Origin: Shewanella sp. UCD-KL21
Lineage (GTDB): Bacteria > Pseudomonadota > Gammaproteobacteria > Enterobacterales > Shewanellaceae
Assembly (NCBI RefSeq): GCF_001957135.1
Contig: NZ_MPHK01000006.1
Span: 62,001 to 126,000 of the forward strand
Direction of reading: 5' to 3'
DNA length: 64,000 nucleotides
In this document: positions 23,748-45,738 of the stretch, piece after piece
How positions within the stretch are numbered: position 1 is the stretch's first letter
Layout of the letters: each line of letters starts with the position of its first letter
Notes under the pieces: model-generated
What the model was told of the DNA's origin: nothing
Seen by the model: only the letters and a program-made list of their open reading frames with translations
The model's database searches: none
Program-made: the position numbers and the translations under genes

Positions 23748-23789
23748 ACAAGTTACAAGTTACAAGTTACAAGTTACAAGTTACAAGTT
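23748..23789 (+). repeat. Heptanucleotide tandem repeat (ACAAGTT)6
   Basis: Six perfect head-to-tail copies of ACAAGTT begin 9 bases after the degS stop and end 6 bases before the following terminator. It does not encode protein in a called gene. Confidence 0.95.
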
Positions 23790-23795
23790 AATCAT

Positions 23796-37018: not shown

Positions 37019-38380
37019 ATGGGTATCGAAGTCATCGACAGCGAACTTACCGAACAACGTCTTAATCAGCTTACACAAGCATTAGGTAGCGGTATGTTTG
37101 TCCATGTCAGAAATATGCTTCATGACATGGCCGCCTCCGATGTCGCATTGATCCTTGAATCATCACCGCCGAAAACTCGTCAAGTGTTATGGCAACTGAT
37201 TGATCATGAACAAGCGGGTGAAATTCTAGAAGAACTCGGTGAAGAATTAAAAGATTCACTCATCAGTGCCATGACGCCCGAAAAAGTGGCCCAAGCCACC
37301 TCAGGCATGGATACCGATGACTTGGCTTACATCTTAAGAAGTTTGCCAGATGCCGTTTATAAAAAAGTACTGCAATCCATGAGCAGTCAAGACCGCCATC
37401 GCGTCGAACAAGCACTGTCATACCCTGATGATACCGCTGGTAGTATCATGAATACCGACACGGTGACTTTACGCCCTGATGTTAATATTGATGTGGTATT
37501 ACGCTACTTGCGCCAGCGTGGCAATTTACCCGACACCACAGATACCTTATATGTGGTTGATCGCAACGATCATGTTCTTGGTGGGGTGCGCCTTGCCGAT
37601 CTGCTCACTTGTAACCCCAACTCAACCATTCGCAGCATCATGGACCCTGAGTTAGAAAGTATCCCAGTAGATATGCCAGACAATGAAGTGGCGCAATTGT
37701 TTGAACGCCATGACTGGATTTCAGCACCTGTGGTGGATGAGCAACAAAAACTACTGGGACGTATCACCATTGATGATGTGGTGGATGTTATTCGTGAAGA
37801 CGCCGAACACTCAATGATGGGGATGGCGGGTATGGATGACGATGAAGATACCTTCGGCCCGGTGATGAAAAGTACCTTCAGACGCTCGCTATGGCTTACC
37901 ATTAACTTGTTTGCCGCCTTGCTTGCTGCATCAGTGAGTAATATGTTTGAAGGCACCTTAGAGCAATTTGCCACCATCGCGATTTTAATGACTATTGTCC
38001 CTAGCATGGGCGGTGTGGCAGGTAACCAAACCTTAGCTCTGGTTATTCGTGGTATCGCCTTGGGTCATATTGGCCAAAGTAACTCACGCTGGCTAATTGG
38101 CAAAGAGCTCGCCATTGGTTTTCTTAATGGCCTCATGTGGTCGGTATTGGTCTTCTTTGCAGTGTGGCTATGGAAAGGTGATATGGCACTGGGCGGTCTC
38201 ATTGGCGGCGCGATGCTCATTAACATGACCGTTGCCGGACTAGCGGGTGCCAGTATTCCACTCATACTTAAAAAACTCAATATCGATCCGGCATTGGCTG
38301 GCGGTATGGTACTGACTACAGTCACCGATGTGATTGGCTTATTCGCCTTTTTAGGCTTAGCGACCATTTTCTTAATGTAG
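37019..38380 (+). CDS. mgtE: Magnesium transporter MgtE
   Basis: It has an N-terminal superhelical domain (about 20-130), two CBS domains (about 135-260: 'YPDDTAGSIMNTDTVTL', 'DNEVAQLFERHDWISAPVVD') and five transmembrane helices (about 290-453). The pore motif region is 'PSMGGVAGNQTLALVIRGIALG', with key GGVAGNQTLALVIRG, where Mg2+ enters. The 453 residues are standard. CAGGAG precedes the ATG. It is a single-gene unit with a terminator at 38410. Confidence 0.96.
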   Translation: MGIEVIDSELTEQRLNQLTQALGSGMFVHVRNMLHDMAASDVALILESSPPKTRQVLWQLIDHEQAGEILEELGEELKDSLISAMTPEKVAQATSGMDTDDLAYILRSLPDAVYKKVLQSMSSQDRHRVEQALSYPDDTAGSIMNTDTVTLRPDVNIDVVLRYLRQRGNLPDTTDTLYVVDRNDHVLGGVRLADLLTCNPNSTIRSIMDPELESIPVDMPDNEVAQLFERHDWISAPVVDEQQKLLGRITIDDVVDVIREDAEHSMMGMAGMDDDEDTFGPVMKSTFRRSLWLTINLFAALLAASVSNMFEGTLEQFATIAILMTIVPSMGGVAGNQTLALVIRGIALGHIGQSNSRWLIGKELAIGFLNGLMWSVLVFFAVWLWKGDMALGGLIGGAMLINMTVAGLAGASIPLILKKLNIDPALAGGMVLTTVTDVIGLFAFLGLATIFLM

Positions 38381-38409
38381 CACCGTAAAACAGCTTCTCT
38401 GACCAGCAT

Positions 38410-38437
38410 AAAAAGCGGCATTCATTGCCGCTTTTTT
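38410..38437 (+). terminator. Terminator of mgtE
   Basis: The stem AAAAAGCGGCA/TGCCGCTTTTTT with a short loop lies 30 bases past the mgtE stop. It separates mgtE from the accessory region that follows. Confidence 0.85.
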
Positions 38438-38712
38438 GTGCGTTAAAACCCTAGACTTTTAATGGTTACTTTTTTTTACCAATTAAAATCAATTCGCACC
38501 AAAATAGCACTTTTGCACCAAGATGTTTCACGCCTACTTTTTAGAGCTAACACTTCAAAAAAATAAGTTACTGTAATAAAAGGGTAAAATATTTATTTCA
38601 TAATTGGCACAAGTATTCCATTGAGTTATGTATCACTAAAGAGGTAGTGTTTAATTTGACCAATTTGGTGGATAAATTTAAGCCTTATAAATTTGAATAG
38701 CAGCAGGAGTCG
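38438..38712. other. AT-rich spacer upstream of HTH/array locus
   Basis: No gene seen. It holds a sigma-54-like sequence at 38605-38620 (TGGCAC-AAGTA-TTCCA; the -12 GC is CC) and a CCAATTTGG palindrome near 38662. No good sigma-70 promoter was found, although this is where transcription of the HTH gene should start. Confidence 0.3.
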
Positions 38713-38805
38713 ATGATGAAATTATTACACACATGTTTGAATCTTTGTCGTAATCAGTGTCACTTTTATAAGCATGTAGGCTGTAGCCTATGGGAAGTAG
38801 AATAG
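38713..38805 (+). CDS. 30-codon Cys-rich peptide upstream of HTH gene
   Basis: This short frame starts ATG ATG AAA. GGAG is placed 6 bases before the second ATG, one of the better ribosome sites in the area. It encodes 30 residues with four cysteines (MMKLLHTCLNLC ... GCSLWEVE). The DNA near its end holds a small hairpin (TAGGCT/AGCCTA). It could be a leader peptide, a small regulatory protein or chance. The HTH gene follows 51 bases later. Confidence 0.35.
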   Translation: MMKLLHTCLNLCRNQCHFYKHVGCSLWEVE

Positions 38806-38856
38806 TCTTATCGTTAAGCCGACGAAGTTAATCGCTTTTAAATGCTTGGAGCTAAT

Positions 38857-39156
38857 ATGTCAGCACAAACAAAGTTTTATCCCGAGAGCTTTCAGCAGCA
38901 AGTGATCGCTGAAGTGAAGCAACATAATCGATTAATTTCTGATGTTGCTAAGCAATACAGCATCTCAGCAAAAACGGTTTACCAATGGGTTAAAAATAAA
39001 GAAACCACGATGACATCAAAAGCTAATGCCGAGGGCGTGACCACTCGCAAGCGTACACAAGCTAAACAGAAAAGCGCTTTAGTGTCAGAGATAGCTCACT
39101 TACAACTAAAGTTATCTCAGCTGAATCAGCAGCTGTTATCGATTAATAGCAATTAG
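38857..39156 (+). CDS. Solitary IS3-OrfA-like helix-turn-helix protein
   Basis: With the ATG at 38857 (GGAG 6 bases upstream) it encodes 99 residues. Residues 5-47 match the HTH_Tnp_1 domain of IS3-family OrfA: FYPESFQQQVIAEVKQH, then DVAKQYSISAKTVYQWVKNK. The C-terminal quarter is a short leucine-zipper-like coiled coil (EIAHLQLKLSQLNQQLLS), as in OrfA dimers. There is no OrfB with a DDE domain, no frameshift window leading into one and no IS3 inverted repeats; instead the stop is followed within about 12 bases by the tandem structured array. I infer a domesticated DNA-binding protein tied to the array. Confidence 0.8.
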   Translation: MSAQTKFYPESFQQQVIAEVKQHNRLISDVAKQYSISAKTVYQWVKNKETTMTSKANAEGVTTRKRTQAKQKSALVSEIAHLQLKLSQLNQQLLSINSN

Positions 39157-39167
39157 TGGGGGTTAAC

Positions 39168-39312
39168 ACAGTTCCGACAAACTTGATTGAATTAAACGCT
39201 GCCCCCATCAGCAATTAATTAGCGACAAATCTATTTTAATAATAGAACTGCTTAGCCTCAAGTTTGTCAATTTTATTACAAAAAGCTGATATAAAGCAGC
39301 TATGTAAGTTAA
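39168..39312 (+). repeat. Array unit 0 (3' half only)
   Basis: Matches the second half of the later units. The long-range stem is ACAAACTTGA (39177-39186) with TCAAGTTTGT (39258-39267), perfect over 10 bp; the inner C-loop hairpin GCTG-CCCCCAT-CAGC begins near 39199. The constant TCAATTTTATT follows. The first half of the unit is missing, its place being taken by the HTH gene. Confidence 0.65.
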
Positions 39313-39590
39313 AACCTGCAACAGGGACTAACAATAATAATAGGTCGCAGGAATGCCAAAAGGCAGTGTAAGGCCGGTACTAATGAAAGGATGTCATTGG
39401 TGCCCGTAAAGACGAAACGAATTGATGTTATAACCGTTCCGGCAAGTTTGATTCGATAAGTGCACCACCCCAAGTGTACTTATTAAGAAGCTAATATTCC
39501 GACGATAAAGGCTTTTAAACAATCAAGCTTGTCAATTTTATTCAAGCTCAGTGACTGCATCACCCCATGATTGCATTGTCACGAAATTGA
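39313..39590 (+). ncRNA. Array unit 1 (278 bp)
   Basis: Predicted elements in order: stem A CCTGC/GCAGG (39315-39319, 39347-39351); stem B TGCC-AAAA-GGCA (39354-39365); stem C GGTACTAATG/CATTGGTGCC (39376-39385, 39395-39404) with loop AAAGGATGT; long-range stem D CAAGTTTGATT/AATCAAGCTTG (39443-39453, 39521-39531); stem E AAGTGCAC/GTGTACTT with loop CACCCCAA (39458-39481); a 21-nt variable segment (39482-39502); stem F GTGAC-TGCA/TGCA-TT-GTCAC (39551-39582) with a C-rich loop. The 3' arm of D can also pair as AGCTTG/CAAGCT (39526-39548), an alternative fold. Confidence 0.6.
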
Positions 39591-39869
39591 AACCTGCAAC
39601 AGGGACTAACAATAATAATAGGTCGCAGGAATGCCAAAAGGCAGTGTAAGGCCGGTACTAATGAAAGGATGTCATTGGTGCCCGTAAAGACGAAACGAAT
39701 TGATGTTATAACTGTTCCGGCAGGTTTGATTCGATAAATGCACCACCCCAAGTGCATTAATCAACTAGGTTATATTTTAACGATATAGGCTTTTAAACAA
39801 TCAAACTTGTCAATTTTATTCAAGCTCAGTGACTGCATTCCCCCCATGATTGCAGTATCACTGAATTGA
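39591..39869 (+). ncRNA. Array unit 2 (279 bp)
   Basis: Nearly identical to unit 1 up to the E hairpin. Stem C is identical (39654-39663 with 39673-39682). Stem E has changed on both sides and pairs perfectly: AATGCAC (39737-39743) with GTGCATT (39752-39758), same loop CACCCCAA. Stem D changes to CAGGTTTGATT/AATCAAACTTG. The variable segment is 22 nt (39759-39780) and unlike that of unit 1. Stem F is GTGA-CTGCA/TGCAG-TA-TCAC (39829-39861). Confidence 0.6.
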
Positions 39870-40133
39870 AACCTGCAACAAGGCTAACAATAATTATAAG
39901 TCGCAGGTATGCCTACAGGCAGGTAAACCACCCTAAGGTAAGGATGTCATTAGGGTGATTGGAGATAGATTCAGGCAGGTTTGATGTGTTGCTAACTGTT
40001 CCCCAGCAGTAAGTAATAGAGGTTTTATTAGGGCTTAAGCACCCAAGGTAATACCACTATCAACATGGCTAATTTATCCGTTTCAACAAGGTGACGGCAT
40101 TCTTCCCCATGCTTGCATGGTCACTGAATTGAA
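39870..40133 (+). ncRNA. Array unit 3 (264 bp, diverged)
   Basis: Stem A is kept (CCTGC 39872-39876, GCAGG 39903-39907). Stem B is kept with a new loop (TGCC-TACA-GGCA, 39910-39921). Stem C has entirely different but fully paired arms, CACCCTAA/TTAGGGTG (39929-39936, 39950-39957), with the loop core AAGGATGTCA retained. The 3' part is strongly diverged, but stem F still closes with GTGAC/GTCAC (40091-40095, 40120-40124) around a CCCC-containing loop. Confidence 0.55.
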
Positions 40134-40225
40134 TACCTGCAGCAAGGAATTAAAACAATAATAAGTCGTAGGCAAGCAATAGCGTAACCCTAATGGACGG
40201 AAGCCATAAGGGTGAATTAAAAAAG
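40134..40225 (+). repeat. Array unit 4 (5' third, truncated)
   Basis: Stem A CCTGC/GTAGG (one G-T pair). Stem C is again rewritten: ACCCT-A-ATGG (40187-40196) with CCAT-A-AGGGT (40204-40213), loop ACGGAAG. Similarity then ends and a 78-codon reading frame continues. Confidence 0.55.
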
Positions 40226-40429
40226 CATAAACTAGGAGATGTATTACGAGTATTAACTAATTTGACAACCAATAGCTTTGAGCTAATTGATTATCGTCCC
40301 CAGCGTCTATCAATTGAGGAAACATTCTATACCCCTTACTTCATGGAATTGCTTTCTACTATCAAACCTATTGAGTCCGTTGACGACTATTTGGACATGA
40401 GCAACTGCTTCTCTCCCCAGTTTTCGTAG
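40193..40429 (+). CDS. Hypothetical protein starting inside last array unit
   Basis: A 78-residue frame whose ATG lies in stem C of unit 4. It begins MDGSHKGELKKHKLGDVLRVL and continues with a mixed, protein-like composition (SFELIDYRPQRLSIEETFY, LLSTIKPIESVDDYLDM). There is no ribosome site, and a stop lies 8 codons upstream in frame, so it is either translated poorly or is the remnant of a longer gene cut by the array. I do not recognise the family. Confidence 0.3.
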   Translation: MDGSHKGELKKHKLGDVLRVLTNLTTNSFELIDYRPQRLSIEETFYTPYFMELLSTIKPIESVDDYLDMSNCFSPQFS

Positions 40430-40498
40430 TGAGCGAATGAATAAGTTTTCATCAACAACAGTTTTAACGCCGATACATTTTGTCGGTAGACAATGCAC

Positions 40499-40535
40499 AA
40501 AAAGCCCTGATGGAAGGATCCATCAGGGCTTTTTT
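40499..40535. terminator. Strong bidirectional terminator closing the array locus
   Basis: A 13-bp stem, AAAGCCCTGATGG/CCATCAGGGCTTT (40501-40513 and 40520-40532), with loop AAGGAT and A/T runs at both ends. It would end plus-strand transcription through the array and minus-strand transcription of the gene at 40587. Confidence 0.9.
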
Positions 40536-40586
40536 ATCTTTAAAGGTTATTAAGTACTTAACTTGTATAGACACAGCGCCACTTAA

Positions 40587-45674: not shown

Positions 45675-45738
45675 GTTTTTTGTTTTTTGTTTTTTGTTTT
45701 TTGTTTTTTGTTTTTTGTTTTTTGTTTTTTGTTTTTTG
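45675..45738 (+). repeat. Heptanucleotide tandem repeat (GTTTTTT)9
   Basis: Nine perfect GTTTTTT units plus a final G, with G at every seventh base from 45675. On the minus strand, which is the coding strand of both neighbours, it reads as (AAAAAAC)9. It lies between the end of the esterase-like gene and the start of the membrane-protein gene. Confidence 0.95.

Follow-up and report, generated by a model that had tools for sequence, protein, structure and literature searches.

Genes and repeat units of the locus

A compact locus composed of a short peptide gene, a helix-turn-helix (HTH) protein gene related to transposon OrfA and a tandem array of structured RNA units was analyzed in Shewanella sp. 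UCD-KL21. It lies within a 64,000-nucleotide stretch of contig NZ_MPHK01000006.1 (positions 62,001 to 126,000), which is referred to below as the window and whose coordinates are used throughout. The following features were annotated, all of them on the forward strand, with the basis of each assignment in brackets:

38495..38525, +, NtrC-like upstream region, CGCACCAAAATAGCAC ... TTTTGCACCAAGATG (match to the NtrC consensus; 38495-38509 also occurs upstream of glnA)
38604..38621, +, sigma-54-like -24/-12 promoter, TTGGCAC-AAGTA-TTCCAT (motif conservation among loci)
38713..38805, +, gene of a 30-amino-acid peptide of the 'HLGxSQWDVE' family (substitution rates, alignment A4)
38857..39156, +, OrfA-like HTH gene, 99 amino acids with a long C-terminal helix (PF01527, E 7.8e-07)
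39176..39276, +, RNA core 0, diverged, C-loop hairpin GCTGCCCCCATCAGC (covariance model R1, 55.3 bits, training sequence)
39306..39583, +, array unit 1, 278 bp (Tandem Repeats Finder, repeat families, folding)
39441..39541, +, RNA core 1 (R1, 58.9 bits, training sequence)
39584..39861, +, array unit 2, 278 bp (92% identity to unit 1 over 261 nt)
39719..39819, +, RNA core 2 (R1, 54.1 bits, training sequence)
39862..40126, +, array unit 3, about 265 bp, with a degenerate core but CCCCA hairpins retained (repeat families D2, D3 and D6; no R1 match)
40127..40498, +, last unit, degenerate, with CCCCA motifs such as CGTCCCCAGCG (64% match in family D2; sequence reading)
40499..40534, +, intrinsic terminator with a 16-bp stem and a T-run (terminator scan)

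The original prediction had described a small peptide frame, an HTH gene and a head-to-tail array of units at this place, and all three proved to be real, the array by both Tandem Repeats Finder (period 278 at 39312-39926, 2.2 copies, 91% matches) and repeat families, whose spacing is 278, 278 and 265 before a degenerate fourth copy. While the tandem units stand, their proposed start at about 39300 does not, as the diverged core 0 recognized by the covariance model is situated directly 3' of the HTH gene. Two flanking terminators had also been proposed; the downstream one was recovered by the terminator scan, whereas the GC stem and T-run after mgtE (~38410-38437) were read from the sequence and not reported by that scan. 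The units contain no conserved frame as far as seen, in line with the prediction, their open reading frames (ORFs) being short and mostly antisense. A 78-amino-acid open frame is present at 40193-40429 (+) in the degenerate last unit, with a sole Pfam match at E 0.13.

Conservation of the genes and of the RNA core

A profile of the HTH protein was searched against 146 Shewanellaceae genomes at a cut-off of E up to 1e-12, and exactly one HTH gene was found in each of 84 genomes. By DNA similarity alone, the locus is detected in four of the 146, with its own genome counted. The HTH protein has four named relatives, all from Shewanella, the best of which is 97% identical. After inspection of the flanks of every one of the 84 loci, 83 entered the counts, as a first set of 49 and a later set of 34; locus L126 of genome G047 was left out by eye, as the layout was not seen there. 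Eleven further loci (L112-L119, L127, L130 and L131), whose OrfA-like genes score below the HTH cut-off, were left out as well, and five of these (L116-L118, L130 and L131) resemble ordinary IS3 OrfA, judged by eye.

The majority of loci consist of a sigma-54-like promoter with NtrC-like sites, a peptide gene of ~30-50 amino acids, the HTH gene and one to approximately eight RNA cores. A peptide with G.S.W near its C-terminus is encoded upstream of the HTH gene in 48/49 first and 19/34 later loci, and a CCCC-bearing hairpin loop occurs at most 400 nt after the HTH gene in 45/49 and 20/34, respectively, both being raw counts without a shuffle control; a stricter peptide pattern was found at 43 of the 49 first-set loci. 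Self-comparison of the first 21 loci, in which unit length ranges from ~134 to 280 bp, showed that 15 of them have tandem copies whose start lies no more than ~300 nt from the HTH gene. L060 has a repeat pair further downstream, L043 has a 34-nt repeat only, far downstream, and no tandem copies were detected in this comparison at L048, L051, L053 and L061, with L051 and L053 located at contig ends. In the clade that includes L060, L061, L066-L070, L072-L074, L076, L128 and L129, each RNA unit contains at least two C-loop motifs.

The ratio of nonsynonymous to synonymous substitution rates (dN/dS) of the HTH gene is 0.03-0.25 in 13 of 14 pairs, the exception being the pair of the window and L042 (0.80, with very few changes). 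For the peptide gene this ratio is below 0.2 in 12 of 14 pairs, with exceptions of 0.47 and 0.66. From these low values, the peptide and the HTH protein are most likely real, selected proteins. The HTH protein has predicted helices at 10-33, 38-57 and 64-98 (predicted template modeling score only 0.30); when its profile was searched against solved structures, the only matches were two weak ones, to a coiled-coil design and RacA. No Pfam family is common to the peptide members. Kinship of the peptide with DUF1127 was ruled out, as none of 24 peptides matched this family at E up to 10; the HTH protein did not match it at E up to 1.

The RNA core is formed by a closing stem GGCAAG..CUUGCC (GGCAAGGAUG/CAUCCUUGCC in most aligned cores) and an inner hairpin capped by CCCCCA. 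We aligned 41 cores from clades other than that of L060 and L061. On this alignment, a structure of 24 pairs yielded a covariation of 0.289; shuffles gave 0.138, with none of 500 reaching the observed value, and slid versions did not exceed 0.105. Both the relatedness of several cores taken from one array and the derivation of the structure from one aligned sequence favor the structure. Pairing is kept in 96.1% of cells of the closing stem, where seven of ten pairs have double-sided changes, and in 74.6% of cells of the inner hairpin, where 12 of 14 pairs have them. Double-changed cells number 112, above all 500 shuffles and every slid version, and two of the 500 shuffles attained as many pairs changed on both sides as observed. 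In folding tests, the 278-nt unit has a z-score of -4.57 and segment 39437-39583 one of -6.0 (0/200 shuffles each). The covariation of the RNA core is strong, and the earlier statement that hairpins are maintained in the units agrees with both covariation and folding.

The covariance model built from the 41 aligned cores (R1) recognizes cores 0, 1 and 2 of the window, all three among its training sequences. Among the 146 Shewanellaceae genomes it matches 30, each time adjoining the HTH gene; 23 of these genomes supplied training sequences, and seven (G038, G050, G062, G083, G100, G102 and G127) did not. The expected co-occurrence of HTH gene and structured RNA is therefore observed in 30/30 R1-positive genomes, including the seven not used for the model. 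Together with the covariation, these matches bear out the proposal of a structured-RNA system linked to the HTH gene, while nothing was found pointing to single-stranded DNA, the other form that had been considered. The sigma-54/NtrC-type promoter, the C-rich loop common to the units, the peptide family and the distribution across Shewanella had not been part of that proposal. The R1 search misses true members, because genome G017 supplied two cores and yet was not matched. Additional matches are located on another contig in G026, G059, G064 and G137, in three of them within 400 bases of the contig start. Among loci outside the training set, R1 scores E up to 0.01 in 12/34 later Shewanella loci and in 11/24 other untrained Shewanella loci (one printed as 0.01), compared with 0/12 comparison loci.

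Over 394 genomes of the order, with nine candidates per genome scored, ten genomes were matched by R1, all from this genus (one of 114 genera). No Vibrio match was seen among these 394 genomes, of which the number belonging to Vibrio is not fixed. L112-L115, HTH homologues from other families of the order, gave no R1 match; at L114 and L115, which belong to another family, a TTGGCA-type motif is nonetheless located shortly upstream of the HTH homologue. No Rfam family matched at the gathering score, either in the window stretch or at 20 loci.

The position of the C-rich runs was examined in 13 of the 49 first-set loci, picked to cover clades. Across the 700 nt after the HTH gene, 54 stretches of at least four C were counted, 45 of them in predicted hairpin loops; dinucleotide shuffles gave 2.45 of 23. 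In all 41 aligned cores the loop has invariant C, C, C and A columns on stems that vary, and the loops read CCCCCA, CCCCA and similar. An A-rich stretch, AA[ACU]AAUAA, a putative Hfq site, occurs on the transcribed strand in 32/49 loci (5.4 expected) and on the other strand in 2/49.

Promoter signals and genomic neighborhood

The pattern TTGGCA[CT]-N5-TT[ACGT]C[AT]T was found upstream of the peptide gene in 45/49 first-set loci; TGGCACN5TTNCAT has five matches in total in the own genome. Many later loci carry the canonical GC form, e.g. TTGGCACAGCTTAAGCAT, and the pattern was relaxed only after eight of these loci had been read. In its relaxed form it is present in 44/49 first and 29/34 later loci, i.e. 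73/83 with 0.03 expected, and the canonical GC at -12 occurs in 15/34 later loci. An NtrC-like palindrome, defined by a best 17-mer scoring at least 10/14 against the NtrC consensus, lies ~90-125 bp upstream of the promoter in 40/45 motif-bearing loci (1.9% in mononucleotide shuffles). Over both sets, 39/49 first and 27/34 later loci are positive (66/83; 1.7 expected by shuffles). In the same genome, glnA is preceded by CGCACCAAAATAGCA, identical to 38495-38509, and by TTGGCAT-GGTAA-TAGC as -24/-12 elements, while glnK carries TGCACCTTATTGGTGCA. Control of glnA, amtB and glnBK by NtrC is given as the regulon core in Proteobacteria (PMC5343134). From these sequence motifs we infer that NtrC acts on the locus.

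In one clade, a conserved A/T-rich dyad to which IHF or the HTH protein may bind is present between the NtrC-like sites and the promoter, at 38538-38564 of the window and in L042-L048 (TTTTTTAGAGTTAACACTTTAAAAAA in L045). A palindrome of another clade, TTAGTGCAATTGCACCAA, was rejected as a special element of the own genome, in which it has 16 matches with up to three mismatches vs nine in the control, none at the locus.

In the window, the locus is flanked by mgtE on one side and by a 208-amino-acid ORF of the opposite strand on the other, with ubiD also identified by Pfam as a flanking gene; rpoN, hpf, ptsN and rapZ were identified by Pfam just upstream. A rapZ gene stands beside the locus in many clades. 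L061 and L067, the two of their clade checked for neighbors, show neither rapZ nor mgtE upstream. Carriage by a plasmid or phage was rejected, as no DNA match was found in the plasmid or phage collection and no relative on viral contigs, and so was a defense system, PADLOC matches being weak only (best E 3.5e-4). Elsewhere in the window, perfect heptamer repeats occupy intergenic gaps (GTTTTTT x9 at 45675-45738 and ACAAGTT x6 at 23748-23790) and are possible slippage sites.

Proposed function, alternatives and implications

The interpretation that we favor, with a probability of about one half, is a nitrogen-responsive riboregulatory operon conserved in Shewanella, whose C-loop small RNAs (sRNAs) act at G-rich ribosome-binding sites. 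Phosphorylated NtrC, bound ~90-120 bp upstream of the -24 element, would activate sigma-54 RNA polymerase, and a single transcript would comprise the small peptide, the OrfA-derived HTH protein and the string of structured RNA units. This transcript would be cut into repeated sRNAs, with RNase E as the likely enzyme, each unit presenting a (U)CCCC(C)A hairpin loop on a variable stem of maintained pairing. The A-rich AANAAUAA stretch of about two thirds of the loci would suit the distal face of Hfq. As a best guess from the sequence, the C-rich loops would pair in antisense with ribosome-binding regions of the UGGGG(G) type and lower translation in nitrogen shortage, with repeat number setting the dosage. 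The HTH protein and the peptide would most likely assist RNA maturation or control, as CcaF1 does for CcsR.

The CcsR1-4/CcaF1 system of the alphaproteobacterial CIN1 loci resembles this arrangement in that a small-protein gene is co-transcribed with four related sRNAs up to an end terminator, and CcaF1 helps RNase E in the maturation of CcsR, according to PMC10253847. At the DNA level, the same feature of tandem related structured RNAs 3' of a small-protein gene is present here. However, the text of PMC10253847 describes a DUF1127 protein and an RpoH promoter, in contrast to the OrfA-like HTH protein, the peptide without DUF1127, the sigma-54-like promoter and the different loop of Shewanella. 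In NfeR1/alpha-r14, one C-rich anti-Shine-Dalgarno motif is repeated unchanged in three hairpins whose stems diverge, and control by nitrogen stress involves NtrC; in the available text of PMC10746234, however, NtrC represses this alphaproteobacterial RNA without a sigma-54 promoter, and a companion protein gene is not mentioned. Its motif, CCUCCUCCC, was not found in the loops described here. NrsZ of Pseudomonas is driven by NtrB/C and RpoN and is a processed sRNA acting at a ribosome-binding site, but it is ~226 nt long, lies in the ntrC-PA5126 region and activates rhlA, with no HTH gene or array of long units mentioned in the available text (PMC8395346). Compared with NrsZ, the sigma-54 and NtrC signals of our locus are present and conserved as sequence motifs only. 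GlnZ is an sRNA that RNase E cuts from the 3' untranslated region of glnA, an mRNA under NtrC/RpoN control; its target is sucA, and a C-loop array is not mentioned in the available text (PMC9731577).

Several observations weigh against the riboregulatory operon. The resemblance to CcsR/CcaF1, NfeR1, NrsZ and GlnZ appears to be one of design only. The unrelaxed promoter pattern is found in only 14/34 later loci, and all 45 motif-bearing first-set loci lack the G of the -12 GC (TT[ACT]C). The AANAAUAA stretch is absent in 17/49 loci, including L044-L047. With regard to the RNA structure, the 'further pair types' value was reached by 20/500 shuffles, and RNAalifold alone predicts the closing stem and misses the inner hairpin. 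A six-base loop is a short antisense seed, and a protein-binding array would look alike. Finally, a divergent clade (most of L198-L216) retains the HTH gene, a canonical sigma-54 -12 element and near-perfect NtrC palindromes, but the peptide was not detected there, and CCC, CCTT or CCTCA replaces the C-loop in several members. Because this clade keeps promoter and HTH gene without them, neither the peptide nor the C-loop is indispensable.

It is less probable that the repeated C-loop hairpins act without base-pairing, titrating an RNA-binding protein such as a global regulator or RapZ. CsrB-type RNAs, which contain many short identical hairpin loops per RNA and bind CsrA through GGA loops, provide the precedent. 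Such a sponge would fit a short loop that recurs on variable stems in one to approximately eight cores per locus, and array lengths that differ between species, as dosage predicts. The rpoN-hpf-ptsN-rapZ-mgtE neighborhood, whose genes were assigned by Pfam in the window only, was seen at 12/19 Shewanella loci examined and also speaks for it; however, L061 and L067 carry the RNA though this neighborhood was not seen there. Moreover, the shared loops are C-rich rather than GGA, Rfam offers no match at the gathering score, and recognition of CCCCCA loops by a bacterial protein is not known to us.

An equally tentative alternative is a partnership in which the units, as RNA or as DNA, are bound by the domesticated HTH protein, with the RNA controlling HTH activity or its own mRNA, so that the array would be a ligand or 3' untranslated element and not a trans-acting sRNA. 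The joint presence of RNA and HTH gene in all R1-positive genomes, most of which supplied the model, is consistent with it, and so is the long-stemmed RNA still seen by eye after the HTH gene in the peptide-less clade, e.g. GCAGAGG..CCTCTGC, whose R1 scores are weak (E 0.022 in L198, 0.19 in L207 and 0.62 in L212). On the other hand, HTH_Tnp_1 proteins are DNA binders and RNA binding is purely conjectural here, and such a partnership leaves both the amplification of the units and their shared C-loop unexplained.

A functionless IS3-type remnant with a decaying tandem repeat, suggested by the likeness of the HTH protein to IS3 OrfA and IS66 TnpA, was rejected as highly improbable, given the single copy per genome in 84 genomes, purifying selection, covariation, the conserved promoter motif, scores far below the curated NCBIfam cut-offs for IS families and the lack of an OrfB-sized ORF. 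The earlier view that this is not a transposon layout was likewise upheld, as the locus contains no transposase-sized ORF and hence no adjacent DDE gene, the HTH gene is single-copy in its own genome, and the only inverted repeats of at least 14 nt found in 38380-40560 are the terminator and a palindrome within the HTH gene, neither of them terminal to an element.

A more far-reaching form of the riboregulatory reading, to which we give a low probability, is a ribonucleoprotein regulator present across the genus, in which the tandem C-loop array, switched on by NtrC/sigma-54, would have the domesticated HTH protein of a transposon as its dedicated partner. What was once the DNA-binding subunit of a transposase would then act jointly with a multi-copy RNA on translation in nitrogen starvation. 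A search of open-licence papers retrieved no description of the locus. An RNA family and two small protein families for which we found no description would be tied to nitrogen control in a well-studied genus. A design known from alphaproteobacteria, in which RNAs linked to stress or nitrogen present C-rich loops repeatedly and in one instance have a companion small protein, would thereby appear in a distant lineage. As the number of cores varies between species, the proposed dosage effect is directly testable, and the HTH gene may represent a second life for a transposon OrfA.

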